Shown: piece by piece, positions 30,750-57,042 of the stretch | Position numbering within the stretch: the first letter of the stretch is position 1 | How the letters are laid out: each line of letters opens with the position of its first letter | From: Odoribacter sp. | GTDB lineage: Bacteria; Bacteroidota; Bacteroidia; Bacteroidales; Prolixibacteraceae | NCBI GenBank assembly: GCA_013824715.1 | Contig: PNOH01000023.1 | Span: forward strand, 1 to 64,000 | Direction: 5' to 3' | DNA length: 64,000 bases | Program-made: the position numbers and the translations under genes | The notes under the pieces: model-generated | Databases searched by the model: none | Told to the model about the DNA's origin: nothing | Seen by the model: only the letters and a program-made list of their open reading frames with translations

Positions 30750-30788
30750 ATTTAATACATTTTAATCGTATTTTAATCGTATTTTAAT
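30750..30788 (+). promoter_or_regulatory. Tandem 11-bp direct repeats (TTTTAATCGTA), candidate OmpR-type operator
   Basis: ATTTAAT at 30750, then TTTTAAT at 30760, 30771 and 30782: spacings 10, 11, 11. Two units are identical 11-mers TTTTAATCGTA and the third is TTTTAATGATA. They end about 100 bp before the CRTAC-type gene at 30890. Similar arrays stand at 36277-36305 and 56994-57042. Direct repeats one helical turn apart are the hallmark of OmpR/PhoB-family binding. A perfect 8-bp inverted repeat (GAACCAAT/ATTGGTTC, 30809-30834) follows in the leader. Confidence 0.65.
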
Positions 30789-30889
30789 GATAATCAGGCA
30801 AGAGGCGTGAACCAATAGGCTGTTTGATTGGTTCAATGGGTATAAATTTCATGAATACCAGTTTCTAATTCTATCTTATTTATCAGTTT

Positions 30890-33800
30890 ATGGGTTCATT
30901 CTCTCTCTCCAAACTAACGAAAATTTTTGCTTTCTCTTTGTTAATCAGTTTTTTAATTTCCTGCAATCAGAAACCTTTGCTTTTTGAGCAGATCAAATCC
31001 TCCAAATCCAATATTCATTTTAATAACCTCATTGTTGAAAATGATTCCATCAATCAGTTGGATAACGGAAATGTTTTTAACGGGGGTGGGGTAGGCATCG
31101 GTGATTTTAACAACGACGGATTGCCTGATATATATTTTACCGCAAATCTTACTTCATGCAAGTTGTACCTGAATAAAGGTAACTTTTCGTTTCAGGATGT
31201 AACTGATGAAGCAAAAGTTACAGGCGAAGAAAAATGGTGCCGGGGTGTGGCTGTGGTGGACATTAACAACGACGGATGGCAGGATATTTATATTTCAGCA
31301 ACAATCTGGAAAAACACAGAAAAAAGAAAAAATATCCTTTACATCAATCAGGGGGCAGATGCCTACGGCGTACCGCATTTTACGGAAATGGCTGCCGAAT
31401 ACGGGCTTGACGATCAATCCCACACCACGCAGGCCGCTTTCTTTGATTACGACAACGACGGCGATTTGGATGTTTACCTGACTGTAAATGAAATTGCAGA
31501 CCGAAACTCTCCCTATGTTTTTCATCCGGTTGTCAAAGACGGTTCGAATTCAAGTACAGGGAAATTACTTCGGAATGAATTTAACAGTTCATTGAACCAT
31601 CCGGTTTTTACTGATGTTTCCAGGCAGGCCGGAATTCAGACTGAAGGATATGGAAATCAGGCCAGTATTACTGACATCAATCAGGATGGATGGAAGGATA
31701 TTTATGTAAGCAACGATTACCTCTCGAACGATTTGTTGTGGATCAATAACCGGAACGGAACTTTTTCGGAAATGCTTTCTTCAGCATTCAAGCATACTTC
31801 GAACAGCGCCATGGGGAACGATGTGGGCGATATCAACAACGATGGCCTGATGGACTTCATCACTCTGGACATGAACCCGGAAGACAATTACCGGAAAAAA
31901 ATGATGCTTCCCCCGGCCAGCTATCAGTTTTTTCAGAATTCAGAACAGTTTGGCTACAATTACCAGTATATCAGGAATACCTTACAACTGAATCAGGGAT
32001 TACGCCCCGATATGCCGGATTCATCCCGAATTCCGGTTTTTGCAGAAATCGCCTACTATTCTGGAGTTGAAGCCACCGATTGGAGCTGGACACCACTTTT
32101 GACCGATTTTGATAACGACGGCTACAACGATTTATTCATTGCAAACGGATTTCCGCGCGACATTACCGACCGTGATTTTGGAATGTTCCGGAGCAATGCC
32201 TGGGCCACCACTTCAAAAGCGGATATCCTGAAACAGGTTCCGGAAGTGAAAATTCATAATTACATTTATAAAAACAATGCGGACCTTACTTTTTCCGATA
32301 TGTCGGTGAAATGGGGTTTGTCGGAACCAACATTCTCAAACGGAGCTGCTTATGCCGATTTCGACAATGATGGCGACCTCGATCTGGTGGTTAATAATAT
32401 TAACGATAAAGCTTCTTTATACCGGAATAATTCCAGAGAGCTTAACAAGGAAAAGAGCCACTTCTTTCAGGTTCAACTGCTGGGAGATTCTTTAAACAGA
32501 AACGGAGTGGGAGCATGGATCGAGATTTATTACGATCAGGGTAAAAAGCAGGTTTGGGAAAATTCACCTTACCGGGGATATCTTTCAACTGTTGAACCCA
32601 GGGCGCATTTTGGTTTGGGAAGTATTACAAAACTTGATTCGTTGGTTGTACGCTGGCAAAACGACAAAAAAGAACTGTTCAGGGATGTTGCTGCTAATCA
32701 GATTTTGAAAGTAAGTTTGAAAAATGCAGGGGTTCATGATTCCCGGGCACAGAAAGAGACGGCGTCGAATGTTCTTTTTAAAGATGTAACCTCCTATTCA
32801 AAAATTAGTTATGCACAAAAAGAAACCGATTTTGTTGACTTCAATATCCAAAAATTAATTCCGCATAAATTCTCGGAATACGGGCCGGCTTTGGCTTCCG
32901 GTGATATAAACGGCGATGGTTTGGATGATCTGATTTCAGGAGGTTCGGCTGGTAATAGTGCGCAAATTTTTCTTCAAAAGAAGGATGGGACATTTAACCA
33001 GAAATCGCTGATTCCGGATTCCAAACTTTCCTCCAAAAACTGGGATGATATGGGAATCCTGCTGTTTGATGCCGATGGTGATGGCGATCAGGATTTGTAT
33101 CTGGTTTCAGGGGGATTCGAAAATGATCCGGGTTCGCCCGGTTACAGCGATCATTTTTATATGAACGATGGCAGGGGAAATTACACCGAAAAGGAGAATG
33201 TATTTCCTGAAAACCACACCAGCAAAGCCTGTGTGAGGGCAGCAGACTTTGATAAAGATGGCGACCTCGATCTCTTTGTCTCCGGAAGGGTTGATCCGTG
33301 GAATTATCCAAAACCGGTTTCAAGTTTTATTTACCGGAATGACTCAAAAAATGGAAAAATTAATTTTTCTGATGTTACCAAAGAAGTTGCCCCGGGTTTG
33401 GTCAATATCGGTTTGGTTTGTGATGCACTTTTTACCGATTTTAATAGCGATGGCTCGACTGACCTGATTTTGACCGGCGAATGGATGCCAATAACTTTCC
33501 TGTCCAATGAAAATGGTATTTTTAAAGATATAACAGCTTCTTCAGGAATCAATAGTCACACAGGCTGGTGGAACAGCATTTCAGGCGGTGATTTCGACAA
33601 CGACGGCGACATGGATTATGTGGTTGGGAACCTCGGACAAAATTCCTTTTTCAGGGCATCTGACAAGTATCCTGTTTCAATCATTTCAAGTGACTTCGAC
33701 AACAATGGCAGTTATGATGCTTTTCCATCACTTTACCTTGTAACAAGTCAGCAGGATTCTACTTTGAAGAATTTTCCGGCCCATGGCAGGGACGATTTGG

Positions 33801-34489
33801 TCAAGCAGATGATCCGTACACGAGTGAAATTTCAGAATTACAAATCACTGGCCGTATCAACCACTGACCAGTTGTTTCCTGAGAAACAATATCAGGGGGC
33901 ATTGAAACTTCAGGCAACCGATTTCAAATCGTCGTATTGCAGAAACGACGGAAACAATAAGTTTACGCTGATTCCGTTACCTGCAACTGTTCAGTTTTCG
34001 GCAGTTAACGGTATGATTACCGATGATTTTGACGACGATGGCAACCTTGATGTGATAATCAACGGCAACGATTATGGAACAGATGTTTTGGTCGGACGAT
34101 ACGATGCTTCAAACGGACTTCTGCTGAAAGGAAACGGGGAAGGTGATTTTACTGCCCTTTCCATTGCTGAAAGCGGAATTTTTATCCCCGGAAATGGAAA
34201 AGCTTTGGTAAAACTCAGAAGTTCAGGAGGAAACTACCTGGTAGCTGCCGCTCAAAACAAAGGCCCTTTGAAGGTATTTGAACTTGAAGAAAAAAACAAA
34301 AATGTTCCTGTTAAGCCTGATGATGTTAGCGCAGAGTTGCTGTTTAAAAATGGAAGTATCCAAAAGCAGGAGTTCAGTTACGGTTCCTCATTCTTGTCGC
34401 AATCAGCAAGGTTTTTAACCGTCGGCAGCAATCTGAAATCAGTTACAATAACCGGTAAACAAGGCCAAATACGAACATTTGACTTTTAA
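30890..34489 (+). CDS. CRTAC1/UnbV-type FG-GAP (VCBS) repeat lipoprotein
   Basis: 1199 residues. The lipobox LISC (Cys about residue 25) predicts an outer-membrane lipoprotein. Many FG-GAP/VCBS blades with Asp-rich calcium loops follow, such as GDFNNDGLPDIYF, FDYDNDGDLDVYL, TDFDNDGYNDLFI and ADFDNDGDLDLVV, making two beta-propellers (about 60-550 and 660-1120) separated by an ASPIC/UnbV-like module around 560-620 (NGVGAWIEIYYDQGKKQV, AHFGLGSITKLDSLVVRW). The family is common in Bacteroidota, often linked to SusCD loci, and is of unknown function; carbohydrate or protein binding at the cell surface is usually assumed. An array of TTTTAAT direct repeats precedes it. Confidence 0.9.
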   Translation: MGSFSLSKLTKIFAFSLLISFLISCNQKPLLFEQIKSSKSNIHFNNLIVENDSINQLDNGNVFNGGGVGIGDFNNDGLPDIYFTANLTSCKLYLNKGNFSFQDVTDEAKVTGEEKWCRGVAVVDINNDGWQDIYISATIWKNTEKRKNILYINQGADAYGVPHFTEMAAEYGLDDQSHTTQAAFFDYDNDGDLDVYLTVNEIADRNSPYVFHPVVKDGSNSSTGKLLRNEFNSSLNHPVFTDVSRQAGIQTEGYGNQASITDINQDGWKDIYVSNDYLSNDLLWINNRNGTFSEMLSSAFKHTSNSAMGNDVGDINNDGLMDFITLDMNPEDNYRKKMMLPPASYQFFQNSEQFGYNYQYIRNTLQLNQGLRPDMPDSSRIPVFAEIAYYSGVEATDWSWTPLLTDFDNDGYNDLFIANGFPRDITDRDFGMFRSNAWATTSKADILKQVPEVKIHNYIYKNNADLTFSDMSVKWGLSEPTFSNGAAYADFDNDGDLDLVVNNINDKASLYRNNSRELNKEKSHFFQVQLLGDSLNRNGVGAWIEIYYDQGKKQVWENSPYRGYLSTVEPRAHFGLGSITKLDSLVVRWQNDKKELFRDVAANQILKVSLKNAGVHDSRAQKETASNVLFKDVTSYSKISYAQKETDFVDFNIQKLIPHKFSEYGPALASGDINGDGLDDLISGGSAGNSAQIFLQKKDGTFNQKSLIPDSKLSSKNWDDMGILLFDADGDGDQDLYLVSGGFENDPGSPGYSDHFYMNDGRGNYTEKENVFPENHTSKACVRAADFDKDGDLDLFVSGRVDPWNYPKPVSSFIYRNDSKNGKINFSDVTKEVAPGLVNIGLVCDALFTDFNSDGSTDLILTGEWMPITFLSNENGIFKDITASSGINSHTGWWNSISGGDFDNDGDMDYVVGNLGQNSFFRASDKYPVSIISSDFDNNGSYDAFPSLYLVTSQQDSTLKNFPAHGRDDLVKQMIRTRVKFQNYKSLAVSTTDQLFPEKQYQGALKLQATDFKSSYCRNDGNNKFTLIPLPATVQFSAVNGMITDDFDDDGNLDVIINGNDYGTDVLVGRYDASNGLLLKGNGEGDFTALSIAESGIFIPGNGKALVKLRSSGGNYLVAAAQNKGPLKVFELEEKNKNVPVKPDDVSAELLFKNGSIQKQEFSYGSSFLSQSARFLTVGSNLKSVTITGKQGQIRTFDF

Positions 34490-34690: not shown

Positions 34691-34801
34691 GAAATTTGTG
34701 ACATGGATTAAAACGAACAATTCTGTAATATGAAAATATTTATACTACCCACACACTCCGACATAGAACCAAAACCAAACCTATTTTTAAAAATTGACTT
34801 T

Positions 34802-36118
34802 ATGAGAAGATTCAAACAAATTACAATTCTGGCCCTACTTAGTCTGGCAGTTGCAGGATGTACTCAAAAAAAAGCGCAACAGTTACCTGAAACAGAGATT
34901 TTGCATCAGAATCAGGATAAGCTGACACAAGTGATCATTTATGATGTTTTTACACCTCCGGTTGCGAGCAGGCTTTATGTTTATACTTCGCTGGCATCCT
35001 ACGAAGCCATTCGGTTTAAAAAGGAAGGGGCGCCTTCCATTGCGGCCAGATTAAGAGGATTTGCAGCAATGCCAGAACCTGAAAAAGGGAAAGACTACAA
35101 TTTCACCCTTGCCGCGACAAAAGCATTTTTTAATGTGGTCAGAAATGTCCGCGTATTTTCGGTTGACTCACTGACAGCCTATGAGGAATCAGTTTACAAC
35201 AGCTTTAAAGAAACGCTTGATGAGGCAACCTATAAACGATCGGTTGATTTTGGTGATTCTGTTGCAACAGTTATCCTGAAAAGGGCCAGCAAGGATGGCT
35301 ATGCGGCTTCAAGAGGAAAAGCCAAATACCTTGGAAGTAACGAACCGGGTAAGTGGAGGCCAACCCCGCCCGATTATCTCGACGGTGTCGAATGGTGCTG
35401 GAACACCATGAAACCCATGCTTATGGATTCAGCATCCATGTTTAAGCCGGACTTGCCGCCAGCTTTCAGCAAAGATACTTCAAGTGTATATTATAAAGGA
35501 TTGATGGAAGTTTACACCATCAGTAAGAACATCACCCAGGAGCAAAAAGATATTGCCAAATATTGGGATGATAATCCGTTAGTTATTGAACATTCCGGCC
35601 ACATGATGTTCGGTAACAAGAAGATTACTCCCGGTGGACATTGGATGGGCATTGCAGCCATTGCCTCAAAAACCTCGGGCGCCGATGAAGTAAAAACAGC
35701 ACAAGCCTATGCCTACACTTCCATTGCTTTATTTGAATCATTTCTTTCGTGCTGGGACGAAAAATACCGGAGCAGTTACATTCGACCGGTTTCTGCCATA
35801 AATGAAATGATTGACCCCAAATGGCTTCCATTCCTGCAAACACCGCCTTTCCCCGAATATACCAGTGGTCACAGTTCTATTTCCGCAAGTGCGGCAACAG
35901 TTCTCGCTGCCCTGTTTGGAAGTAATTTCGCATTTCATGATAACAGTGATCTCCAGTACATCGGGATGGAGAGGGATTTTAATTCTTTTGAAGAGGCTGC
36001 AGCCGAAGCATCGGTCAGCCGGATTTATGGTGGTATCCATTACCGCTTTACGGCTGATGTGAGCGCAGTACAAGGGAAGAAGCTGGGAGCTTTTATTATA
36101 GAGAAACTTGGGAAATAG
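34802..36118 (+). CDS. Vanadium haloperoxidase/PAP2-family lipoprotein
   Basis: 438 residues from ATG 34802, which gives a proper lipoprotein signal (MRRFKQ..., VAGC, Cys about 20); the upstream ATG at 34730 would add an unlikely leader. The three vanadate/phosphate-binding motifs of the vanadium chloroperoxidase/PAP2 superfamily are present near the C-terminus: K-x6-RP (KYRSSYIRP), SGH (YTSGHSSISASA) and R-x4-H (RIYGGIHYRF). Relatives either oxidise halides with peroxide or are acid phosphatases; sequence alone does not decide. It is probably attached to a membrane facing the periplasm. Element A lies upstream and a terminator hairpin downstream, so it is a single-gene unit. Confidence 0.88.
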   Translation: MRRFKQITILALLSLAVAGCTQKKAQQLPETEILHQNQDKLTQVIIYDVFTPPVASRLYVYTSLASYEAIRFKKEGAPSIAARLRGFAAMPEPEKGKDYNFTLAATKAFFNVVRNVRVFSVDSLTAYEESVYNSFKETLDEATYKRSVDFGDSVATVILKRASKDGYAASRGKAKYLGSNEPGKWRPTPPDYLDGVEWCWNTMKPMLMDSASMFKPDLPPAFSKDTSSVYYKGLMEVYTISKNITQEQKDIAKYWDDNPLVIEHSGHMMFGNKKITPGGHWMGIAAIASKTSGADEVKTAQAYAYTSIALFESFLSCWDEKYRSSYIRPVSAINEMIDPKWLPFLQTPPFPEYTSGHSSISASAATVLAALFGSNFAFHDNSDLQYIGMERDFNSFEEAAAEASVSRIYGGIHYRFTADVSAVQGKKLGAFIIEKLGK

Positions 36119-36236: not shown

Positions 36237-36276
36237 TTTTATGTCAATTATTAGTATTCACGCCATTTTTAGAGGA

Positions 36277-36305
36277 TTTTAATGCCATTTTAATTCGGTT
36301 TTAAC
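36277..36305 (+). promoter_or_regulatory. Tandem TTTTAAT direct repeats at 11-bp spacing
   Basis: TTTTAATGCCA, TTTTAATTCGG and TTTTAACATAG start at 36277, 36288 and 36299, exactly 11 bp apart. A near-consensus -7 element TATCATTG (36327-36334) follows 21 bp after the last unit, the distance expected for an activator bound just upstream of the -33 region. They precede the seven-gene operon that starts at 36360. Confidence 0.65.
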
Positions 36306-36359
36306 ATAGTGTGAACAGAATTGTATTATCATTGTAATTCTCTTTAGCCTGACATTGTT

Positions 36360-38060
36360 ATGCAAAAACCAAAAAAAATAACCAGAAAATCAACTATTTC
36401 CGGCCATTCTGTTTTTCTACTGATCGCTTTACTTTTTCTTGCCGGATGTAATTCCAATAATCCGTCCTCCAAAACTAAAAAACAGGCCAAGCTGACTGTT
36501 CCTGAGGCTAATGAAGATTTTTATCAGGAGATTGGCCAGGAAATTGGTTTGGATTTTGTCCATTCCATTGGTGACGATGAACTCGATAATATCATTGAGT
36601 CAGTTGGAGGGGGAGCGGCGCTCCTGGATTACGATCAGGATGGCTACATGGATATTTATGTGTGCAGTGGCAAATGGATTGAAACCTTCAGTAAAGGTAA
36701 AAAGCCGGATTTTAAGACTGAAAACCATCTGTTTCACAACCTGAAGAACGGAACTTACGAAGATGTAACCGATAAGGCCGGGGTTGGTGGCGACAGTTAT
36801 GGAATGGGCGTTACGGTGGGCGATTTCAACAATGACGGTTATCCCGATTTGTATGTAAGCAATTATGGTCCCAATGTGCTCTATAGAAATAACGGTAACG
36901 GAACTTTTAAGGATGTTACCAAACGCAGCGGTTTAGCCGGTGGAAATGAATGCAGCGTTGGAGCTGTCTGGTTCGATTACGACAACGATGGTTTGCTTGA
37001 TCTGTACGTGACCAATTACCTTTTCTTTGATCCTACCTACAAATATTTTTATGCTCCTGACGGCTTTCCGGGCCCAATGGCCTACGAAGTTCAGGCCGAC
37101 GTGCTGTATCATAACAAAGGAGACGGAGAGTTTGAAGATGTGACCGGGGCTATGGGAATTACCGATATTGACGGCCGGGGAATGGGCGCGGGAGCCGCTG
37201 ACTACGACGATGATGGTTTTGTTGATGTTTATGTGGCCAACGACCATTCACTCAATTACCTCTGGCACAACGACGGCGGCAAAGGTTTTACCGACAGGGG
37301 GACCATGTCGGGTACAGCTTTTGGTCAGAGTGGAGAAGGAACAGTCAGCATGTCGGTTGATTTTGCCGATTTCAATGGTGACGGTCTGCTTGATTTGTTT
37401 GTTTCTGATGATAAATATTGTTCACTCTATGAAAATATTGGAAACGGAGTTTTCAGCGATCAGTCTTATCAATCGGGAATTGCCATGCCAGCCGGTCAAT
37501 TTGTTGGCTGGTCATCCTCTTTCATTGACTATGACAATGACGGCGATGTGGATATCTTTAAAATTAACGGCGCCCTGAAACACCTCTATGGACATGAAGA
37601 TCAACTGTTTGAGAATATTGGCGACGGAAAATTCAAGGATGTTTCCGTAGAAAGAGGGAAGTATTTCAGTAAAGAACTTGTTGGACGCGGCGCCAGCTTT
37701 GGGGATTACGACAACGACGGAGATATGGACGCTTTCATTGTAAACCTGAATGACCGGCCTGTATTCTTACGAAACAACAAAGGCAATCAAAACAACTGGC
37801 TCACCTTAAACCTGATTGGACAAACCAGCAACAGGGATGGTATAGGCTCAAGGGTAAAACTGACGTCAGGGGGTGTAGTTCAGATTGCACAGAAAAAAAG
37901 TACTACTGGGTACCTTTCTCAAAATGACCCGAGAATGCATTTTGGGCTTGCAAAAAACGATGTGGTCGAGAATATCGAAATTAAATGGCCATCGGGACAA
38001 GTTCAGGTATTGGAGAATGTGAAAGCCAATCAGATACTTACAGTAAAAGAACCCAAATAA
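36360..38060 (+). CDS. CRTAC1/UnbV-type FG-GAP repeat lipoprotein
   Basis: 566 residues. Lipobox LAGC (Cys about 30). A single VCBS/FG-GAP propeller spans about 65-460, with calcium-type loops LDYDQDGYMDIYV, GDFNNDGYPDLYV, FDYDNDGLLDLYV and ADFNGDGLLDLFV. A C-terminal ASPIC/UnbV domain (about 475-560) contains NRDGIGSRVKLTSGG, RMHFGLAKND and IEIKWPSGQVQ. The domain order matches the human CRTAC1-like family. First gene of a tightly packed operon that runs to the DAHP synthase gene; the gap to the next gene is 9 bp. The TTTTAAT array upstream suggests control by an OmpR-type regulator. Confidence 0.92.
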   Translation: MQKPKKITRKSTISGHSVFLLIALLFLAGCNSNNPSSKTKKQAKLTVPEANEDFYQEIGQEIGLDFVHSIGDDELDNIIESVGGGAALLDYDQDGYMDIYVCSGKWIETFSKGKKPDFKTENHLFHNLKNGTYEDVTDKAGVGGDSYGMGVTVGDFNNDGYPDLYVSNYGPNVLYRNNGNGTFKDVTKRSGLAGGNECSVGAVWFDYDNDGLLDLYVTNYLFFDPTYKYFYAPDGFPGPMAYEVQADVLYHNKGDGEFEDVTGAMGITDIDGRGMGAGAADYDDDGFVDVYVANDHSLNYLWHNDGGKGFTDRGTMSGTAFGQSGEGTVSMSVDFADFNGDGLLDLFVSDDKYCSLYENIGNGVFSDQSYQSGIAMPAGQFVGWSSSFIDYDNDGDVDIFKINGALKHLYGHEDQLFENIGDGKFKDVSVERGKYFSKELVGRGASFGDYDNDGDMDAFIVNLNDRPVFLRNNKGNQNNWLTLNLIGQTSNRDGIGSRVKLTSGGVVQIAQKKSTTGYLSQNDPRMHFGLAKNDVVENIEIKWPSGQVQVLENVKANQILTVKEPK

Positions 38061-38069
38061 ACCTTGTAA

Positions 38070-39491
38070 ATGAAACGAAAAAGTTCGATATCAACTCTAC
38101 TGATCTTCTTTTCATTCAGCTTTTCATCGGTATTTTTATCCTCCTGCGGAAAAAAATCGCTAGAAGGGATGATGATATGTACCGAGGTGTCCGGTAAAAT
38201 TCAGCAACAGAATTTATGGAAAAGTGATACTCCTTCAAGAATTGTTGCCGTTGACCCAACCCAACCGGAAGGTAGTATCAAAGCGCTTACTGAGGGTTAT
38301 TATTCAGCACATTCGCCTGAAATTTCATGGGATGGAAAAAGCCTGTTGTTTACGGCAAAACAAAAACAAAACGATGAATGGCATATCTATGAAATGAACC
38401 TCGATAACTTCAAAATCAAACAGGTTACTTCCTCAGATGTTAATTGCAGCAATGCGGTTCATTTGCCCAACGGCCGGTTCGTTTTTGGCTTGTTAACCAG
38501 CAAGGATAGTGTAAAAACAGGACATCCGTTATTTACCTGTAATCCTGATGGATCCGACCCCAAGCAAATTACTTATAATCGCAACGCCTATTCTGCTTTA
38601 ACCGTTCTGAATGACGGTCGTGTTCTGGCCCTGGATAAAACAAGCAGTTCTGACAAGCAGAAAAACATCCTGATGGTTATGCGTCCCGACGGTACAAAAG
38701 CTGAATTGTTTTATGAGGGTCCTGCCGGGAGTAATCTGATAAGCAAAGTATCTGAAACAACAAACGGAAATATCTTTTTTGTTGAATCCGGCCCAGGAAG
38801 TCAGGATGGGACCGATATCACTTCCATCAGTTACAACCGCCCTTTGCATTCACGAGTAAACCTAACTTCAGAAATTAAAGGCGATTTTCAATCCGTATTT
38901 CCCATGCCATCTGGCAAGCTACTGGTTTCCTATCGTTCGTCTGAAACTGAACGGTATTCGGTTTATGAATTTGATCCGGAAAATAAGGTTTTAGGGAAGC
39001 CTGTTTATTCAAGTAGTGATTACGATGTGTGTGAAATTGCTGTCGTTCATCAACACGTAAGGCCTAAAAAGCTGCCCAGCGAAGTTGATTTTGGGGTAAA
39101 AACCGGTTTGCTTCTTTGTCAGGACATCAATTTTTTAGATCCGGATTTCATCAAAAATTCTCAGGTACTACAAAAGGCAGTTGCCATTGAAATCATGGGA
39201 ACCGATTCCGCGATGGGCGTTGTTCCTGTTGAAAAAGATGGCTCATTTTATTTAAAGGTTATTGCCGATACGCCTTTTCATATCCGCACTCTTGATGAAA
39301 ATGGCAAAATACTGAACCATTCTTGTGAATGGATTTGGATCAGGCCCAACGAACGAAGGGGTTGTGTGGGATGTCATGAAGACCACGAACAAACTCCGGA
39401 GAATCGTGTGCCCCTGGCTGTTAAAAATCTTCCGGTAAATGTGCCGGTTCATATTGAAAAGATTAAAGAGAAGAAGATTTCACTCGAATAG
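38070..39491 (+). CDS. HzsA-related lipoprotein with TolB-like propeller and CxxCH motif
   Basis: 473 residues. Lipobox LSSC (Cys about 26). The middle (about 60-330) reads as a TolB/WD-like propeller (SPEISWDGKSLLFTAKQ, ICTEVSGKIQ). The C-terminal part contains IRPNERRGCVGCHEDHEQTP with CVGCH at about 432-436, a c-type haem attachment motif in a context typical of proteins annotated as 'hydrazine synthase alpha subunit middle domain'. That label reflects a domain only; hydrazine synthesis is not implied. Likely a periplasmic or surface electron carrier. It is 2 bp from the next gene, a cytochrome c peroxidase-like protein, and so presumably works with it. Confidence 0.85.
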   Translation: MKRKSSISTLLIFFSFSFSSVFLSSCGKKSLEGMMICTEVSGKIQQQNLWKSDTPSRIVAVDPTQPEGSIKALTEGYYSAHSPEISWDGKSLLFTAKQKQNDEWHIYEMNLDNFKIKQVTSSDVNCSNAVHLPNGRFVFGLLTSKDSVKTGHPLFTCNPDGSDPKQITYNRNAYSALTVLNDGRVLALDKTSSSDKQKNILMVMRPDGTKAELFYEGPAGSNLISKVSETTNGNIFFVESGPGSQDGTDITSISYNRPLHSRVNLTSEIKGDFQSVFPMPSGKLLVSYRSSETERYSVYEFDPENKVLGKPVYSSSDYDVCEIAVVHQHVRPKKLPSEVDFGVKTGLLLCQDINFLDPDFIKNSQVLQKAVAIEIMGTDSAMGVVPVEKDGSFYLKVIADTPFHIRTLDENGKILNHSCEWIWIRPNERRGCVGCHEDHEQTPENRVPLAVKNLPVNVPVHIEKIKEKKISLE

Positions 39492-39493
39492 TT

Positions 39494-41530: not shown

Positions 41531-41536
41531 TTTAAT

Positions 41537-46938: not shown

Positions 46939-46962
46939 CCGGATATGAATGCTTTTATTTCT

Positions 46963-46970: not shown

Positions 46971-47047
46971 AACCGAAAATCAAGCCAAAATGAAAATGTA
47001 ATCTCATAAAATTAGTTTATCCGACCAATCCAATAATATTTTCCCTT

Positions 47048-50000: not shown

Positions 50001-50608
50001 CAGGAAAATTCCTTTCCGGCGATCGCCGCATTAAAATCAGGTCGAATATGGAAGTTTACTGGGACCAGATTTTCTTTTCAGAAGTTAATACCAATTATCC
50101 AATCAATAAAACGGTATTAAATCCTGAATCGGCCGATATTCATTATCGTGGTTTCTCAAAGAGTTACCGGAAAGGTGGCCGTTACGGACCGCATTGGTTC
50201 GATTATTCTTCGGTTGACAAAAACCGGAAATGGCGCGACCTGACCGGAAATTATACCCGGTACGGAGACGTTTTACCACTTCTGACAAGTTCTGATAACA
50301 AATATATCATTTCGAATGCCGGTGATGAGACTACCATCAGTTTCGATGCCAAAGTGCTGCCGCAATTAAAGAAAGGCTGGAAAAGAGATTTTCTGATCCA
50401 TAGTGTGGGATGGGTGAAGGATGGCGATATCAATACTGCTTTGGGAAGTACTGTATTACCGCTTCCATTCCATGGCATGAAAAGTTACCCTCCTTCCAGA
50501 GAGGATGTTTTTCCGAATGACCCGGCGCTTCAGCGATACCTTCAGGAATATAACACCAGGGTTGTTAACCACGACGATTACCGAAATTCACTAAAAAACA
50601 GAAACTAA
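47048..50608 (+). CDS. TPR and FG-GAP repeat (CRTAC/UnbV-type) lipoprotein
   Basis: 1186 residues. Lipobox LFSC (Cys about 20). TPR motifs at about 38-230 (YLEEFKLDEAEKEFLKLIDIAPNEKMGYANLGLTYLRMAKYPEAEKELFKAIEIDP), then a VCBS/FG-GAP propeller (about 290-670; ADYDGDGDADLYV, TDYDNDGFLDLYI, GDFDDDGDIDLFV), an ASPIC/UnbV module (about 675-745) and a long C-terminal domain (about 755-1180) opening with CPFLYTWNGTEYVFAKDI. This combination recurs in large exported proteins of Bacteroidota, Acidobacteria and Planctomycetes, without known function. It is followed after 2 bp by another CRTAC-type gene, so the two are co-expressed. Confidence 0.9.
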   Translation: MKHFLFLCFAFLSITILFSCKNTPKDDRQKAIDKISNQTLGLAYLEEFKLDEAEKEFLKLIDIAPNEKMGYANLGLTYLRMAKYPEAEKELFKAIEIDPKDADIRLLLATVYQVNDQREKAISELTEALKFAPDHIKILYNLSELYSTGSDAGSQKQRQDYLVQLVEKAPDNLVPRLNLTEIYIKNGETDKAIEQLEIIHKQFPEFPKEAVTYFDKTISLLKKHDQQNSFIQFTIFHNYIKVTSPYQAGILVFKGPGGSLIGFPLITYDQQSNTQTIEGKSLLDVIKFTDVTASAGLNVVTSFKEGENPEYRNFTHVETADYDGDGDADLYVGAYDPASGSYRHFLFNNDMGRFKEVSAEVGMNHSGRESSAVFTDYDNDGFLDLYITREGGDILYRNAGKGVFKDVTSDAKIGSKTGGNKAVFFDLDHDGDLDLFETGSSSNLVFRNNGDGAFQERATEMGLSGTGVNSQDATFGDFDDDGDIDLFVANEKTSNSLYSNQRQGIYNDVTEKSGLKSKGGSSAVAVGDCNNDGFLDLFVTSMNGENTEMYLNKGNGIFELAKNTRQMFAALKQVKVNDAKFLDFDNDGFLDILVAGESLDKSGRGLILYHNDGNGIFTDVSKLLPEGPKSGRQIALFDYNDDGDLDIALAGTNGGVFLLRNDGGNINHFVNMKLVGLRAGSAKNNHFGIGAKVEMRSGDLYQSLVVTEPGVHFGLGNRTKADVIRITWTNGVPQNIFMPGADQAIIEAQTLKGSCPFLYTWNGTEYVFAKDIIWRSALGMPLGIMGGTTKYGFADASDDYIRIPGEMMQPKEGKYSIQVTSELWETIYIDQIQLVAVDHPDSVDIYVPEQFTPPPFPGCKIYQVSQKHFPVSAIDSEGNDVLALVTEEDDKYVAGFTPDKYQGITEMHELILDPGKEGLAKNLFLFLNGWIFPSDASINVAISQSDALKVMSPEIQVINKKGEWETVGNLGFPMGKDKMVIADLSGKFLSGDRRIKIRSNMEVYWDQIFFSEVNTNYPINKTVLNPESADIHYRGFSKSYRKGGRYGPHWFDYSSVDKNRKWRDLTGNYTRYGDVLPLLTSSDNKYIISNAGDETTISFDAKVLPQLKKGWKRDFLIHSVGWVKDGDINTALGSTVLPLPFHGMKSYPPSREDVFPNDPALQRYLQEYNTRVVNHDDYRNSLKNRN

Positions 50609-50610
50609 GG

Positions 50611-52305
50611 ATGTTGAAACGATTTGGAAGTATAGGAATTTGTTTGTTTTTATTGAGCCTGCCTGTTCTGTTGCCAGCCCAGCAGAAGAAAGTGATGTTT
50701 AATGATGTGACAGCTAAAGCTGGTATAAATTTCAAATACACCATTGGTGATTACTCCTACAAAAATATCATTGAGAGCAGCGGATCGGGGATAACCGTAT
50801 TCGATTACAACAACGACGGATTCATGGATATTTACCTGATGAACGGAACCTACCTGGAAGGAATTTCGGATCCGGCAGGAAAAGTATTCCGCAATTCGCA
50901 CAACGAACTCTACAAAAACAATGGCAATGGCACATTTTCCGAGGTTTCTGAAAAAGCTGGCGTGGCTGGTAAACAATGGTGTATGGCAGCCAGCGCTATC
51001 GATCTGGATAACGATGGTTTTCAGGATTTATATGTGCTGAATTATGGCCCAAATGTATTCTATCACAACAACGGCAATGGCACTTTTACCGATATTACTT
51101 CAAAATTGGGTCTTGCCGGACCGGATAAACTCAATGGATTTGCCAAATGGAGCATTGGCGCTTCATTCTGGGATTATAACCTCGACGGGAGGCTGGATGT
51201 GATGGTCGGAAATTTTATGGCTTTCGATCCGGCCTATTTCACGCCGGGCTCGCCGGATATGATGCCGAGTCCGACTGAATATAAAGGACAGGCTTCATTT
51301 TTATACGAGCAGCAATCCAACGGGAAATTTATAGATGTAACCCAAAAGAACAACCTCTTTTATCCTGATTCAAAATGCATGGGTCTGACGGTATTGGATA
51401 CTGATGATGATGGGGACCTGGATATTTTTCAGGCTAACGACCATCAGTTGAACTTTCTCTTCAGGAATGATAAAGGTGTATATAATGAAGTGGGAATTGC
51501 CAGCGGAGTTGCGGCAAACAGTAAAGGCAGAGTCACCGGTTCGATGCACCCTACGATTGGCGATGTGGATGGGGATGGCTTGATTGACATTTTGGTTACT
51601 GATCTCGATTACGGTGCGCTTTATAAAAATATGGGTCAAGGCATTTATGCTGATATTACCGAAAACAGTGGAGCCGCTGCAGCTATGGAAGGCAAAGGTA
51701 GTTGGGGAGCAGCGCTTTTTGATTACGATAATGACGGTGATTTAGACCTGATTGCTGCCAACGGCACTGCCGAGGAATTAATACTTCAATATCCGGTTCT
51801 GCTTGAAAACAATGGTAAAGGACATTTCAGAAATGTTGGAAAAGACCGTGGCGCCTATTTTACCACAAAAAAATCGGGCAGGGGATTGGCCATCTGCGAT
51901 TTTGATAACGACGGAAACCTCGATGTGATCGTCTCTCATGTTGACAATAAACCGGTAGCTCCAGCCCTTCTCAGAAATGAAGGTGGAAATGGGAATCACT
52001 GGCTCGGGTTGACCTTGAAAGGCAAAAATGGACCGGCTTCTGCAATTTCTGCTAAAGTTACAATCACCGCCGGAGGAAAGAAACAGGTGCATGTTAACCA
52101 GTGGGCAACTAGTTACCTTTCGAATAATGAACCACGTCTCCATATTGGGTTGGGGCAACAAAAGCAGATTGATCAGGTGGAAATAAACTGGTCGGATGGG
52201 AAGAAGGAAATATTCAAAAATATTGGTTGCGACAAGTACCTGACTATTCTTCAGGGAACGGGCATCGCATCGCAATACCCCATCCCCAACCCTTCCCCAA
52301 AATAG
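50611..52305 (+). CDS. Exported CRTAC1/UnbV-type FG-GAP repeat protein
   Basis: 564 residues with a signal peptide (about 1-23, LPAQ) rather than a lipobox. One FG-GAP propeller (about 35-455; FDYNNDGFMDIYL, IDLDNDGFQDLYV, WDYNLDGRLDVMV, CDFDNDGNLDVIV) and a C-terminal ASPIC/UnbV domain (about 465-550; RLHIGLGQQKQIDQVEINWSDGKKE). Closely similar in layout to the protein at 36360. The last residues (YPIPNPSPK) are encoded by the left arm of an intergenic-type inverted repeat that supplies the stop codon, so the natural C-terminus has probably been altered. A short AAGG precedes the ATG. Confidence 0.92.
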   Translation: MLKRFGSIGICLFLLSLPVLLPAQQKKVMFNDVTAKAGINFKYTIGDYSYKNIIESSGSGITVFDYNNDGFMDIYLMNGTYLEGISDPAGKVFRNSHNELYKNNGNGTFSEVSEKAGVAGKQWCMAASAIDLDNDGFQDLYVLNYGPNVFYHNNGNGTFTDITSKLGLAGPDKLNGFAKWSIGASFWDYNLDGRLDVMVGNFMAFDPAYFTPGSPDMMPSPTEYKGQASFLYEQQSNGKFIDVTQKNNLFYPDSKCMGLTVLDTDDDGDLDIFQANDHQLNFLFRNDKGVYNEVGIASGVAANSKGRVTGSMHPTIGDVDGDGLIDILVTDLDYGALYKNMGQGIYADITENSGAAAAMEGKGSWGAALFDYDNDGDLDLIAANGTAEELILQYPVLLENNGKGHFRNVGKDRGAYFTTKKSGRGLAICDFDNDGNLDVIVSHVDNKPVAPALLRNEGGNGNHWLGLTLKGKNGPASAISAKVTITAGGKKQVHVNQWATSYLSNNEPRLHIGLGQQKQIDQVEINWSDGKKEIFKNIGCDKYLTILQGTGIASQYPIPNPSPK

Positions 52306-52326
52306 GGAAGGGAGTTTGGGATGGGG
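52278..52326. repeat. Inverted repeat overlapping the end of a CRTAC-type gene
   Basis: CCCCATCCCCAACCCTTCCC (52278-52297) pairs with GGGAAGGGAGTTTGGGATGGGG (52305-52326) with one small bulge. The TAG stop codon of the upstream gene lies in the loop. It may act as terminator or mRNA end stabiliser. Confidence 0.75.
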
Positions 52327-52379
52327 AACCCTGGAAGTATGATCTTTTAGGAACATACTTTCTAGTTTTGCAGGATGCC

Positions 52380-52408
52380 AAGTCCCCCGTTTGGGGGATT
52401 TAGGGGGC
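52380..52408. repeat. CCCCC/GGGGG hairpin repeat before the asparagine-synthetase-like gene
   Basis: AGTCCCCCGTTTGGGGGATT (52381-52400) followed by TAGGGGGC: a compact hairpin of a type common between Bacteroidota genes. With the repeat at 52278-52326 it fills most of the 187-bp gap; the last 80 bp are AT-rich and hold no recognised promoter box. Confidence 0.65.
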
Positions 52409-52492
52409 AATATCAGATTTATACTATTATTTCATTACCTATCAAATTCGTGGTAGAAACATAAAAGAAAAGTAACTCAAAAAACAAAGAAT

Positions 52493-53821
52493 ATGAACAG
52501 CATGTATGTGAGCAAATTGGTGGACCTCACCCTGCCGGAAAAGAATGTTATTTATAACATGACTCATGAGGAAGCAGTTGAATTGGTTAAATCTGGCGAT
52601 GTAGAAGCAGTCCGAAAGATTGACGGGCAGTTTTCCCTGGTTTCTGTCGAAGGTAAAACCATCCGGATGGCACGGTCTATTGGTCGTCCGTTGCGTTATT
52701 TTATTGCCAAGAGACCAATCGGCCCTCAGTTGGTCATTGCTGAGAGGATTGATGTCATTTTCGATTATCTGAAACAGGAAGGCATGGACCATCAGTTCCA
52801 TCCATCATACACCCGGATGGTTCCCGCGCATTACATTACCAAAATTGAATTGTTGGGTTGTCCTGATCCAAATCCGGTTTACACTCGTTTCTTTACGCCC
52901 GAACGCAATAAATTCGTTCCGGAAGACGCCGGTCGGGTTGCTGCCGATTACATTGGAACCGTTTACAACGAAATTAAAAAATGGCTGAAATACCGTGCAA
53001 CTTCAGGACCAATTGGGGTAACGTTTTCTGCCGGTATCGACAGTGGATCTGTATTTTTGCTTACTTATCATGCTTTGATAGAACTTGGTGAAAGTCCATC
53101 GCGCCTAAAAGCATTCACACTTTCGATTGATGGCGATGGTGCAGATTTGCTTCAGGCAAGAAAATTTTTGGAAGCCGTGAATCTCGAGATGTTTCTGGAA
53201 CCCATTGAGGTTGAGTATTCCGCTTTGGACTGGAAAAAAGCAGTAACCATTACAGAAGATTATAAACCTCTTGATATACAGGCAGCTACCATGAATTTGG
53301 CGCTGCTTCAGGGAATCAGGTCACGTTATCCGGAATGGAAATACATTCTCGACGGCGATGGTGGTGATGAGAACCTGAAAGATTATCCGATTGAGGAAAA
53401 TCCTGAACTGACCATCCGCAGTGTGCTCAATAACCTGATGTTGTATCACGAAGGCTGGGGTGTGGAGTCAATCAAGCATTCTTTGACTTATTCAGGAGGA
53501 TTGAGCCGTGGTTACATGAGAACATTTGCCCCGGCAGATTTGCTCGGTTTCGAGGGATTTAGTCCATACACTCTGCCCAATGTGATCGAGATTTCAGAAG
53601 GAATTCCTTACATTGATCTGACCAATTGGGATCACCAGAAACTGTATGATTTAAAAGGACAATTTGTTTCTCAGGGTGTAAAAGCCATTACAGGAATGGA
53701 TATGCCGGTCTTTCCCAAAAGGCGCTTTCAGCATGGTGCAGCCTCTGAAAAATCATTTAAAAAGCATTTTCCTGAACGTGAAATAACCTACCGGAAAGAA
53801 TTCCTTTCAAAATATGAGTGA
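52493..53821 (+). CDS. Asparagine synthetase-like ATP-dependent amide ligase
   Basis: 442 residues. The C-terminal part (about 150-400) is an asparagine synthase/beta-lactam synthetase-type domain: PP-loop FSAGIDSGSVFL at about 175-186 for ATP, AFTLSIDGDGADLLQARKFLE, and YILDGDGGDENLKDYP at about 285. The N-terminal 140 residues resemble a class II glutaminase domain (FSLVSVEGKTIRMARSIGRPLRYF) but lack the N-terminal catalytic cysteine, since the protein starts MNSMYV. It therefore probably uses ammonia or an amine, or closes a ring, rather than hydrolysing glutamine. It overlaps the radical SAM gene by 8 bp, so the two act together. Substrate unknown. Confidence 0.88.
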   Translation: MNSMYVSKLVDLTLPEKNVIYNMTHEEAVELVKSGDVEAVRKIDGQFSLVSVEGKTIRMARSIGRPLRYFIAKRPIGPQLVIAERIDVIFDYLKQEGMDHQFHPSYTRMVPAHYITKIELLGCPDPNPVYTRFFTPERNKFVPEDAGRVAADYIGTVYNEIKKWLKYRATSGPIGVTFSAGIDSGSVFLLTYHALIELGESPSRLKAFTLSIDGDGADLLQARKFLEAVNLEMFLEPIEVEYSALDWKKAVTITEDYKPLDIQAATMNLALLQGIRSRYPEWKYILDGDGGDENLKDYPIEENPELTIRSVLNNLMLYHEGWGVESIKHSLTYSGGLSRGYMRTFAPADLLGFEGFSPYTLPNVIEISEGIPYIDLTNWDHQKLYDLKGQFVSQGVKAITGMDMPVFPKRRFQHGAASEKSFKKHFPEREITYRKEFLSKYE

Positions 53822-54770
53822 TCAACGGGAACCGGTAACTTTTGACAAATGGATTTTAGACAATCGTGGAACGAAAAATCCGGTTGATCCGTTCAAACCA
53901 TATTTCTGGCTGGCTGAAAAAGAACGACAGGTTTCGGGTGAAACAGAAAATACCGGAACGATTTTTCTGACCAACATGGAATGTCCGTTTCATTGTCTGA
54001 TGTGCGATTTATGGAAGAATACCACCGATCGTCCGGTTCCTGTTGGCGCTATTCCGGCACAAATTGAATGGGCGTTGGAACAGATGCCCAATGTCAAACA
54101 TTTGAAACTGTACAACAGCGGAAGTTTTTTTGATGAAAGGGCAATTCCGGTTGCTGATTATCCGAAAATCGCTTCACTTTTAAATGGCTTTGAAACGGTC
54201 ATTGTCGAAAGTCATCCCAAATTCATTAACGAAAGCTGTCTGCAATTCAGGGATATGTTAAAACCTGAATTACAGATCGCAATTGGTCTCGAAACCGTAC
54301 ATCCTCAAATTCTCCGGAAGCTTAATAAGCACGTGACGATTGATAATTTTCGCGATTCAGTAAAGTTTCTTGCCAGAAACGGTATCCGTTCCCGGGCTTT
54401 TATTTTGCTACGGCCTCCGTATCTTACCGAATCAGAAGGAATATTTTGGGCACAAAAGTCAATTGATTTTGCTTTCAGCGTTGGTGTAGAATGTTGCATC
54501 ATCATTCCTGTCAGGGCTGGCAATGGCGCTATGGAACAATTATTGGGAAGAGGTGATTTTAGCCTTCCCAAAATTGAATCGCTGGAAACCGTCCTGCAAT
54601 ATGGTATTGGCCTCAAAGCCGGGCGGGTCTTTGCCGATACCTGGGATTTGGGTTTGTTTTCCACCTGCCCGAAATGTTTGGAACAGAGGATTAACAGGAT
54701 TAATGCCATGAATCTGAATCAGGAAGTTGTTTTTCGCGAAAAGTGCATTTGTGAAGCAATTGAAATCTAA
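53814..54770 (+). CDS. Radical SAM protein partnered with the amide ligase
   Basis: 318 residues. The cluster motif C57-x3-C61-x2-C64 (NMECPFHCLMCDLWKN) is followed by a radical SAM partial barrel (LYNSGSFFDERAIP, ELQIAIGLETVHPQILRKLNKHVTIDNF, RAFILLRPPYLTESEG). The C-terminus adds four cysteines, C285, C288, C311 and C313 (STCPKC and KCIC), which could bind zinc or a second iron-sulfur cluster. The overall pattern recalls the TIGR01210/RaSEA-like group, some of which modify tRNA bases, but the neighbour is an amide ligase rather than a tRNA enzyme. Start ATG overlaps the ligase stop (ATGAGTGA). No precursor-peptide gene is seen nearby. It is the last of the co-directional genes of this locus. 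Confidence 0.88.
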   Translation: MSDQREPVTFDKWILDNRGTKNPVDPFKPYFWLAEKERQVSGETENTGTIFLTNMECPFHCLMCDLWKNTTDRPVPVGAIPAQIEWALEQMPNVKHLKLYNSGSFFDERAIPVADYPKIASLLNGFETVIVESHPKFINESCLQFRDMLKPELQIAIGLETVHPQILRKLNKHVTIDNFRDSVKFLARNGIRSRAFILLRPPYLTESEGIFWAQKSIDFAFSVGVECCIIIPVRAGNGAMEQLLGRGDFSLPKIESLETVLQYGIGLKAGRVFADTWDLGLFSTCPKCLEQRINRINAMNLNQEVVFREKCICEAIEI

Positions 54771-54777: not shown

Positions 54778-56148
54778 TTAGATTTTCGATGGTAGTTTTA
54801 CGATTACCTTGGTTCCGTTTCCAGGCTCGGATGAAATCCTTATTGTTCCTTTGTGTGTTTTAATAATCTGATTGACAAGCTGAAGACCTATTCCTGTTCC
54901 CGGATATTCGATCGCGTTGGAGGCACGGTAAAAAGGTTCAAATACTTTTTGCAGGTCAGCTTCTGAAATACCAATGCCGTGGTCGGTAAATACCAGTTCG
55001 ATATGTTGACCAGTGTGTTCCATTTGAATGTCAACTGAATGATCATCTGAATATTTACAGGCATTGTCAATGATATTTGAAAGTGCTGCCTTTATCAAAG
55101 ATTCATCTCCATTCACAACCAGGTGATCCGAATCTGTAAGCGATTCACCCAGTGAAATATTAACATGATAATTCTTGTAGTGCTTTTGAATCTCTTCCTG
55201 TGCCTGCCAGAGAACTTCATCAATTCTGACTTCCTTGTCTATATTGATGATACTCTCTGATTTTGACCTTGCAACCATGAGTAAGCGGTTCGAAAGTATA
55301 ATCAGTGATTTGATGTCATCAAGAACCGATTCAATGGCAGCCTTATATTCCTCCGATGAACGGTCTTTCAACATCAGAACCTCCAGTTGTCCGTTTATTG
55401 AAGTGAGTGGGGTCCGGAGTTCATGTGAAGCATTGGAGATAAAATCCTTCTGAACGGCAAATGATGCTTCCAAACGTTCAAGCATATTATTGAAGGTTTT
55501 TGCCAGTTTCCCGATTTCATCCGATTCGTTGTTAACCGGTACCCTCAAATTCAGACTGGCAATAGAAATTTCTTCAACTCTTTTTACCACATTGCTCATA
55601 GGTTTCAATGCTCTTCCTGAATATATCCATCCCGCAAATGAGAACAAAACCAGACTGAGGCAGCATACCAGAACAAGTATAAACCTTAATTTTGCCAGAT
55701 AAAAGGATCCTTCAATATCGGTGGCTGCAGCTAATACGACAAACCTGTCGAGCTTGGCTGCATACAACACGCCAACAACTTCGTAGTTTCCCTGTTTGTA
55801 GGTTACATTCTCGAGCAACCTTATCCTTTCCAGAACGCTGTCAATTATTTTTATTTCATTGGATGGATCAGTAGAATAAATAACATCATTAAGGAAGTTT
55901 AGAACGATGATTTTCTCATTAATCAGATTAACAGGATTGTCCTTCTCCAGTCTCAAGACCCGGTCAGGATCAATTACTTTGGCCTCAAGCAGGAGCCTGG
56001 CGGTGCTCTTGGCTTTATTTCTTAAACGGTTGTTAAAATCTTCTTTTCTGAAGCTTGCAGAAGAATAATATGTAATCAATGAAGCAAAGATCATTATTAT
56101 TACTCCCCATAAAAGGAACTGTAATGTTAATCTGGTCCTGATCTGCAT
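54778..56148 (-). CDS. HAMP-domain sensor histidine kinase (OmpR-system type)
   Basis: 456 residues from ATG 56148. Transmembrane helices at about 9-30 and 155-177 enclose a periplasmic sensor of about 125 residues. HAMP domain about 178-231 (SGRALKPMSNVVKRVEEI). Phospho-acceptor H242 in SNASHELRTPLTS. ATPase domain about 345-455 with N-box AALSNIIDNACKYS, G1 TDHGIGI and G2 YPGTGIGLQLVNQIIK. It partners the regulator whose stop codon lies one base upstream of this ATG. It sits convergent with the radical SAM gene, 7 bp away. The sensed signal is unknown; a cell-envelope or nutrient cue is likely. Confidence 0.94.
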   Translation of the reverse strand: MQIRTRLTLQFLLWGVIIMIFASLITYYSSASFRKEDFNNRLRNKAKSTARLLLEAKVIDPDRVLRLEKDNPVNLINEKIIVLNFLNDVIYSTDPSNEIKIIDSVLERIRLLENVTYKQGNYEVVGVLYAAKLDRFVVLAAATDIEGSFYLAKLRFILVLVCCLSLVLFSFAGWIYSGRALKPMSNVVKRVEEISIASLNLRVPVNNESDEIGKLAKTFNNMLERLEASFAVQKDFISNASHELRTPLTSINGQLEVLMLKDRSSEEYKAAIESVLDDIKSLIILSNRLLMVARSKSESIINIDKEVRIDEVLWQAQEEIQKHYKNYHVNISLGESLTDSDHLVVNGDESLIKAALSNIIDNACKYSDDHSVDIQMEHTGQHIELVFTDHGIGISEADLQKVFEPFYRASNAIEYPGTGIGLQLVNQIIKTHKGTIRISSEPGNGTKVIVKLPSKI

Positions 56149-56149
56149 A

Positions 56150-56827
56150 CTATAAATCTCCGAAAATATAACCAAAGCCAACTTTGGTATGGATTAGCTT
56201 TTTATCGAATCCTTTGTCGATCTTTTTTCTTAAGAAATTCACATATACATCAACAACATTGGTTCCGGAATCAAAACTGACGTCCCAGACTTTTTCAACA
56301 ATGTCGTTTCGTGAAAGTACCCGCCCGCTGTTTCTCATGAAAAACTCAATCAATGCAAACTCTTTGGCTGTAAGTTCTATTTGAGTGATTCCCCTTTTAA
56401 CCGTTTTCCGGTTGAGATCCAGTTCAAGATCACCAAAAATGAGTTTATTTGACTGATCCACCGCTTTGTTTGCTGTTTTTAAAAGTACCTTAATCCTGGC
56501 AAGTAACTCCCTAAATTCAAATGGTTTAATCATATAGTCATCAGCTCCTGCATCAAATCCGATTAGCTTATCATCAGTGGTTCCTAGAGCTGTGAGCATT
56601 AGAATTGGGATATCCGGGTTTTTCAATTTAAGCTTTTTACATAAATCCAGTCCACTTATTCCGGGAATGATGATATCCAAAATAAACAGGTCGTATTGAT
56701 ATTGGTGGGCAAGATTGAAGGCAGATAATCCGTCATAAGCAATCTCCGCTTCATAGTTGCTCTCTTCAAGTCCTTTTTTTATAAATGAAGCTACTTTTGG
56801 TTCATCTTCAACTATAAGTATTCTCAT
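56150..56827 (-). CDS. OmpR/PhoB-family response regulator
   Basis: 225 residues from ATG 56827 (a TTG just before is less likely). Receiver domain about 1-118 with D51 as phospho-acceptor in LFILDIIIP and K in DYMIKPFEF; winged helix of OmpR/PhoB type about 128-225 (KLIFGDLELDLNRKTVKRG, RNSGRVLSRNDIVEKVWDVSFDSGTNVVDVYVNFLRKKID). Such regulators bind direct repeats about 11 bp apart. Arrays of TTTTAAT with that spacing are found in its own divergent promoter region with susC (56994-57042) and in front of two CRTAC operons, so this regulator is the leading candidate for controlling all three. Confidence 0.94.
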   Translation of the reverse strand: MRILIVEDEPKVASFIKKGLEESNYEAEIAYDGLSAFNLAHQYQYDLFILDIIIPGISGLDLCKKLKLKNPDIPILMLTALGTTDDKLIGFDAGADDYMIKPFEFRELLARIKVLLKTANKAVDQSNKLIFGDLELDLNRKTVKRGITQIELTAKEFALIEFFMRNSGRVLSRNDIVEKVWDVSFDSGTNVVDVYVNFLRKKIDKGFDKKLIHTKVGFGYIFGDL

Positions 56828-56993
56828 CAATTTTGATTTTATTTTTTAATTATTCAAAAACTTCCCGAATTCTCCTCAATTCAGCAATATTAAGAATTTT
56901 CGCACGAACTTAAGGTTGTATGAATAAAAAAAATGGGTAATTGTCTTATTTACAATATAGGAATAAAAAAAATACTTAAACAGAACCGGGAAG

Positions 56994-57042
56994 ATTAAAA
57001 AGAAATTAAAGCCAGATTAAAAAAGATTAAAAAAAGTTAAAA
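56994..57042 (-). promoter_or_regulatory. Five tandem ATTAAA direct repeats between the regulator and susC genes
   Basis: ATTAAAA 56994, ATTAAAG 57005, ATTAAAA 57016, ATTAAAA 57026, GTTAAAA 57036: spacings 11, 11, 10, 10. On the minus strand they read TTTTAAT, the unit found at 30750-30788 and 36277-36305. They end 39 bp before the susC -7 element. The array may regulate susC, the divergent two-component operon, or both. The rest of the gap 56828-57156 is AT-rich with no gene. Confidence 0.65.

Follow-up and report, generated by a model that had tools for sequence, protein, structure and literature searches.

Can three separate groups of genes on one bacterial contig be placed under a single regulator by a short repeat in front of each of them? 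This question is raised by the window studied here, the 64,000 nucleotides at positions 1 to 64,000 (forward strand) of contig PNOH01000023.1 from Odoribacter sp. (assembly GCA_013824715.1; Bacteroidales, Prolixibacteraceae). The screened genome, G000, counts 4,602,615 bases in 85 contigs, of which C23 is the window contig. Three tandem arrays of TTTTAAY-type units, with a period of one helical turn, lie upstream of genes in the window, the third one beside a gene for an OmpR/PhoB-family response regulator (RR). Judged from the sequence comparisons below, the arrays are probably operators of this RR, with a rough probability of 0.77. Array 2 is near certain to be such an operator, array 1 is likely to be one, and array 3 is plausible but weaker. 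A first-pass annotation of the window had placed the units of the three arrays and assigned them to the RR; the unit positions were confirmed, with array 2 having an extra degenerate fourth unit. The elements concerned are:

30750..30788, + strand: array 1; ATTTAAT (one mismatch) at 30750, TTTTAAT at 30760, 30771 and 30782; steps of 10, 11 and 11 bp
36266..36305, + strand: array 2; degenerate TTTTTAG at 36266, TTTTAAT at 36277, TTTTAAT at 36288, TTTTAAC at 36299; exact 11-bp steps
56994..57042, - strand: array 3; five TTTAAY units at 10-11-bp steps, reading toward the RR gene and away from susC
56150..56827, - strand: OmpR/PhoB-family RR, the proposed activator; identified by Pfam scan; adjoins array 3
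54778..56181, - strand: sensor histidine kinase (HK) with HAMP, HisKA and HATPase_c domains; identified by Pfam scan

Exact chains of at least two TTTTAAY units at 10- or 11-bp steps occur within the window at arrays 1-3 alone, and its three three-unit chains compare with a mean of 0.0 in 300 dinucleotide shuffles of the window. Across the genome, the strict 11-bp pattern has two matches (arrays 1 and 2) vs none for a reversed-pattern control. The arrays are far beyond chance. The first-pass annotation had proposed a genome search for the array, which might have been common in AT-rich DNA. This is not the case, with only four exact sites of three TTTAAY units at an 11-bp period in 4.6 Mb, i.e. 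arrays 1, 2 and 3 and a fourth array at C2:192306. The same search with up to two mismatches was uninformative: its 40 matches come near the 29 of the control, and therefore only exact or near-exact matches are counted. Unrelated 11-bp tandem repeats of the TTCAATAGTCA type at C10:55768-55817 and C26:33806-33866 (L250, L259) mimic the array in relaxed searches and were discarded as arrays.

The fourth array (C2:192306-192344) lies about 130 bp ahead of a SusC-SusD cluster with three ASPIC genes (L051, L052). A genome search for UnbV_ASPIC genes returned eight, five on C23 and three on C2. All four exact sites stand at these two ASPIC clusters, and all eight ASPIC genes are co-directionally downstream of an array. 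The G004 orthologue of array 1 has four units with one mismatch.

The presence of the RR was compared with that of the array in a family-level panel of 140 genomes and an order-level panel of 393 genomes, drawn evenly. Operon-bearing genomes (n = 20) were picked by a match to the first gene of the operon behind array 2: 14 at family level (at least 63% identity in 14/140) and six more at order level (G384, G146, G263, G269, G349 and G493). Besides the own genome, RR matches of 74-89% identity were found among the 140 family genomes in G004, G086 and G091, the next best being 63%. The family-level operon genomes with an array at the operon are G000, G004, G086 and G091 (4/14); in the other ten, no strict array turned up genome-wide, and no good one in the stretches around the operon or in the 600 bp upstream. 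At order level, where the operon genomes without the RR were scanned locally only, except G146 (whole genome), G384 is the sole operon genome with an RR match at 1e-84 (73%), and the other five have no array within 1.5 kb of the operon gene. Consequently, a good array stands at the operon in 5/5 operon genomes with an RR at least 73% identical vs 0/15 without it (Fisher 6e-5; the test and the counts ignore kinship, and the 20 genomes, like the 32 arrays used below, are phylogenetically non-independent). A whole-genome scan for four units with up to two mismatches gave matches in all six RR-bearing genomes (7, 3, 1, 3, 4 and 4, including overlapping registers and two G000 tandem repeats) with one control match in total, and none in four operon genomes without the RR (G146, G077, G066 and G036).

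Comparison of orthologous upstream regions, also suggested in the first-pass annotation, revealed that array 2 is kept at the operon in G004, G086, G091, G384 and fen_957. The last of these (L137, a metagenome-assembled genome of Bacteroidales, PMIJ01000114.1) was found via its RR and is therefore outside the 20-genome count. The elements are also physically linked. In G384 (L121), the RR-HK pair, the array and the orthologous operon follow each other in direct succession, while in G091 and fen_957 they are neighbours separated by one to three genes. In fen_957, SusC-SusD-ASPIC genes are divergent from RR-HK, and then come one gene, a perfect four-unit array and the operon. Adjacency of RR-HK and array is further seen in G110, G016, G250 and G204.

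Bacteroidota promoters have a -7 element, TAnnTTTG, which ends in TTG. A TTG starts exactly 15 nt past the last unit in 21 of 32 arrays (a hand-kept list with related arrays included), compared to a background rate of 0.022 at other tested positions. All six operon-linked arrays (G000, G004, G086, G091, G384 and fen_957) have it. By arithmetic, a TTG at +15 puts the third unit on the -33 position, and 5/6 operon promoters have no TTG at the -33 distance. A fixed distance from operator to -7 element is thus found in array 2 and its counterparts. Array 1 sits upstream of a candidate -33 in a class I-like arrangement, the -33/-7 pair being some 20 bp further down. A composite search (four units, N15 and TTG; up to three mismatches) yielded eight matches in the own genome vs none in the control. 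These are convincing only at C36 (one mismatch) and array 2 (two mismatches, in two registers), the matches at C2, at three C14 sites and in the C26 tandem repeat having three mismatches each. The promoter-like elements in the window are:

36316..36323, + strand: -7-like element CAGAATTG of array 2, its TTG exactly 15 nt after the last unit
30823..30850, + strand: candidate -33 (TTTG, 30823-30826) and -7 (TAAATTTC, 30843-30850) after array 1; consensus match only
57060..57089, + strand: susC promoter-like TTTG-N18-TACCTTTG; consensus match only

Classification of the RR as an OmpR/PhoB-type regulator holds, with Response_reg (98.8 bits) and Trans_reg_C (86 bits) both over the Pfam cut-off. Family members bind direct repeats in tandem with a period of about 11 bp; repeats of this kind, associated with the RR, are seen here. 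Its acidic pocket (E7, D8), phospho-accepting D51 and conserved K101 are invariant in 11 aligned sequences. The best NCBIfam matches are CusR/CopR/CzcR for the RR (235.4 bits) and CusS-type kinases for the HK (213.3 bits), both below the curated heavy-metal cut-offs (279.2 and 292.55 bits, respectively), and Pfam scans of the operon gave no metal resistance families. CusR sites are palindromes, whereas the window sites are tandem repeats. The RR is also under the NCBIfam cut-offs for PhoB (183.8 v 296.2 bits), Bacteroides PhoB (181.6 v 270 bits) and PmrA (147.9 v 330 bits). In the PhoB pho box, tandem 11-bp direct repeats replace the upstream promoter box at a fixed distance from the downstream box; array 2 would have a similar layout, with a different unit sequence. 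By sequence, the nearest known operator is the PmrA (BasR) box, which also consists of head-to-tail hexamers with a TTAA core 11 bp apart, and the RR resembles BasR chains in the PDB (E 7e-33). According to PMC3973317, the PmrA half-sites are CTTAAT/CCTAAG, with CTTAAG and XTTAAT separated by five base pairs in Salmonella; these are two half-sites, in contrast to the three to five units of the window arrays. The window promoter also differs, looking like the Bacteroidota -33/-7 type. We infer that the arrays would form a PhoB/PmrA-like class II activator operator.

The recognition helix of the RR, GTNVVDVYVNFLRKKID, is nearly invariant among RRs with TTTTAAY arrays. Residue 199 is not Y in 25/28 RRs of the TTTTAAY type (F in 21; Y in 3/28), while it is Y in 24/24 of the TTCTAAY type. 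The F/Y change in the helix may read the T/C change in the unit, although the comparison holds only one (starred branches) to three independent tree pairs, in which ancestry is inseparable from function.

The association extends to more distant RR loci. Thirty family RR loci (at least 48% identity) have 11 arrays in 10 loci vs a mean of 1.45 in shuffles. As a control, the eight Trans_reg_C (OmpR-type) loci of the own genome were inspected: a good array within 1.5 kb is found only at the window RR and at a paralogue on C73, with a poor array (three mismatches) at C14 and none at the other five. The wide survey covered the best 80 of 576 RR relatives with named loci, including L214 (titled Beijerinckiaceae) and L138, apparently the same record as G250. 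In these best 80, strict TTTAAY arrays number 14 in 265,587 bases near RR-HK vs 6 in 1,160,974 bases elsewhere in the same loci, a density ten times higher near RR-HK; 13/80 loci have such arrays. At a threshold of four T(C/T)TAAY units with at most 4 mismatches of 24, an array is present in 47/80 of these loci, 40 of them directly after the HK, vs 8/239 controls. A motif-free count of 11-bp repeats in 73 post-HK segments has TCTAAT (23), TTCTAA (21) and TTTAAT (13) on top; TTTAAT is repeated at 11 bp once in 660 controls, and the counts at periods of 9, 10, 12 and 13 are at most 2.

In the 80-locus scan, 22/47 arrays have a TTG at +15, a count slightly inflated by ties being resolved toward such arrays. 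Among post-HK arrays the +15 TTG is seen in 11/12 with fewer than two TCTAA units and in 8/28 with at least two. The next open frame is co-directional in 38/40 post-HK arrays (crude frame calling). The TTCTAAY-type loci, among them L168, L201 and L208, have post-HK arrays mostly without the +15 TTG. A terminator-like hairpin directly follows 3/40 post-HK arrays, an arrangement that would put the operator past the 3' end of its own operon. The predicted operators belong to a known kind, the tandem direct repeats of OmpR/PhoB regulators, within which they are a new class that is widespread in Bacteroidota. A literature search limited to open-licence PMC papers gave, among the matches listed, no description of such an operator and nothing relevant on its motif, which is weak evidence of its absence in print. 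We give even odds to a broader reading, i.e. a phylum-wide cis-regulatory code. Here, an RR subfamily of Bacteroidota would recognise sets of four T(T/C)TAAY units with an 11-bp period, in most cases immediately after its own RR-HK genes and, in the TTTTAAY type, with TTG at +15. In the lineage of the window, this code would have been recruited to run all ASPIC genes as one dedicated regulon, to which a hydrazine-synthase-like complex and SusCD importers would belong.

Several observations weigh against the arrays being operators of the window RR. At the promoters, the -7 of array 2 has no consensus TA, array 2 of G004 does have a TTG at the -33 distance, 22 nt before its -7, and the +15 spacing is missing from arrays 1 and 3. 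At the operon, G055, which has no RR, shows four units in reversed orientation some 100 nt ahead of the operon gene, with 4 mismatches in 24 positions. This is the limit of the 80-locus threshold and, if counted, gives 1/15; its relative G048 has a poorer reversed match. Our confidence is slightly reduced by the weak match in G055 and by the TTG at the -33 distance in G004. Strict arrays are present in 8/140 family genomes. In four of these (G024, G030, G063 and G094) the search for the RR at 1e-60 gave no match, and the arrays stand away from the operon; they may be due to chance, A-tracts or another regulator. In the wide survey, 33/80 loci have no array at the threshold. As for array 3, it is inverted relative to susC and rich in A-tracts, and its strict conservation is seen in one close relative only (G004). 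Since the flanks are conserved equally there, the G000/G004 conservation was discarded as proof. The SusC gene of G091 (30% identical, a non-orthologue) has no array in the ~850 nt available upstream, that of fen_957 has a weak forward array (two good and two poor units, four mismatches), and reversed A-rich arrays precede SusC-like genes in G024 and G094.

Array 3 has five units beside the RR gene, 109 nt before the susC open reading frame, with neither a +15 TTG nor a -33/-7 pair in its own direction and with the consensus susC promoter in the opposite direction. It may on its own be a set of phased A-tracts (curved DNA or an UP-like element) boosting a strong susC promoter, with arrays 1 and 2 as operators. 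This is a tentative alternative of some weight, though we would not bet on it. Its A-runs, which recur every 10-11 bp and reach a length of seven, its reversed orientation and the similar arrays of G024 and G094 agree with this. However, the RR-bearing G384 has a perfect reversed four-unit array with A-runs of mostly four before SusC-SusD-ASPIC (G384:C57, L260), and the same kind of cluster on the own C2 has a forward array, which argues for an operator. The first-pass link between a redox-like locus and nutrient uptake is supported, and the fourth array precedes a second SusC-SusD-ASPIC cluster; array 3 itself is less fully supported.

Less probable, and in our view unlikely, is that arrays 1-3 are bound by the paralogous RR at C73:545-1207, or by both RRs, so that the ASPIC genes are not the private regulon of the window RR. 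The paralogue is 61% identical to the window RR with nearly the same recognition helix, and a related array is present in its own neighbourhood and another at C36:40466. The C73:1298-1325 array (L114) precedes a citrate-transporter-like gene and the C36:40466-40504 array (L011) a 287-aa coiled-coil protein; both are probably sites of the paralogue. In G004, G016, G110 and G262, too, arrays precede coiled-coil proteins of similar size. Nevertheless, in G384 a 73% RR directly adjoins array and operon, and genomes with a 60-61% RR, such as G016 and G009, have neither the operon nor a strict array of three TTTTAAY units. G016 does carry four units with a single mismatch, at another target. Among the genomes compared, no operon genome with a 60%-type RR alone was seen, and the two RR types are not cleanly separated. 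The claim of one regulon of three units under the window RR thus stands for the co-occurrence of RR and array and the linkage in G384, G091 and fen_957; it is not fully supported for array 3, inverted and without promoter spacing, and the paralogue leaves the pairing of arrays and regulator unsettled. That the arrays are chance AT-rich sequence or a microsatellite can be dismissed: intergenic DNA is AT-rich and the genome does hold the C10 and C26 repeats, but the shuffles and reversed controls rule this out, the units stay constant while the spacers between them vary, and arrays recur at the operon in genomes with an orthologous protein 69-76% identical.

Returning to the window RR as the regulator, we infer a mechanism from the observed sequence, co-occurrence, adjacency and spacing; its steps, i.e. 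binding, phosphorylation, activation rather than repression and position relative to the start site, are predictions. The HK would phosphorylate the RR, whose dimers would line up head-to-tail along the TTTTAAY units at their 11-bp period, with two dimers occupying four units. At array 2, with the third unit at the -33 place and the -7 at a fixed distance, the RR would replace the missing -33 and recruit RNA polymerase (class II activation). Array 1 would be a class I-like operator about two turns further upstream of the candidate -33/-7 pair. Array 3 would be an inverted operator upstream of the consensus susC promoter, which may act on susC, the RR-HK operon or both. The array-led gene groups are probably switched on together; one signal would then govern the ASPIC-bearing groups of this genome, among them a periplasmic operon of hydrazine-synthase-like type and two SusCD importers.

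The genes behind the arrays in the window are (HZS, hydrazine synthase):

30890..34489, + strand: FG-GAP/UnbV_ASPIC protein of 1199 aa, first gene after array 1; identified by Pfam scan
34730..36118, + strand: PAP2-like protein, co-directional, possibly in the array-1 transcription unit; score 27.4 v cut-off 27.2
36360..45575, + strand: array-2 operon; ASPIC protein of 566 aa, HZS-alpha-like, HZS-beta-gamma-like, unknown, RidA-like, periplasmic binding protein, DAHP synthase
45802..54770, + strand: co-directional continuation; binding protein, TPR/FG-GAP/ASPIC, ASPIC, Asn-synthase-like, radical SAM
57157..62017, + strand: SusC (ATG at 57157; listed open reading frame from 57151) and SusD
from 62032, past the window end: ASPIC gene after SusD

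The gene order of the continuation is kept in G004, G077 and G384, from which we take 36360-54770 to be possibly one transcript. The HZS-like genes at 38070-41530 carry heme-binding motifs, in an operon context of CRTAC1/ASPIC, DAHP synthase, RidA-like, Asn-synthase-like and radical-SAM genes. The product of 38070-39491 is a relative of hydrazine synthase alpha with one CXXCH motif, and that of 39494-41530 a relative of the beta-gamma fusion with three. Matches to PDB 5c2v have E-values of 2.2e-18, 7.1e-50 and 5e-15, and both proteins are far under the NCBIfam cut-offs for hydrazine synthase. According to PMC12758564, a CRTAC1 gene precedes alpha in the clusters of clade III, and two ABC binding proteins are encoded downstream, a layout like that of the window operon. 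The abstract of that paper states that key residues are not conserved in the distant homologues; therefore, the window operon is not to be labelled anammox. Upstream of the fourth array, C2:187450-192112 (L051:2450-7112) encodes a dCache histidine kinase, a DegP-like protease and a sigma-70-like factor.

The finding provides a predictive operator rule: wherever a Bacteroidota genome encodes an RR of this type, a search for the array would point to the target promoters. It also offers a handle on when the CRTAC1/hydrazine-synthase-like operon is expressed, and suggests its induction together with a TonB/SusCD importer.

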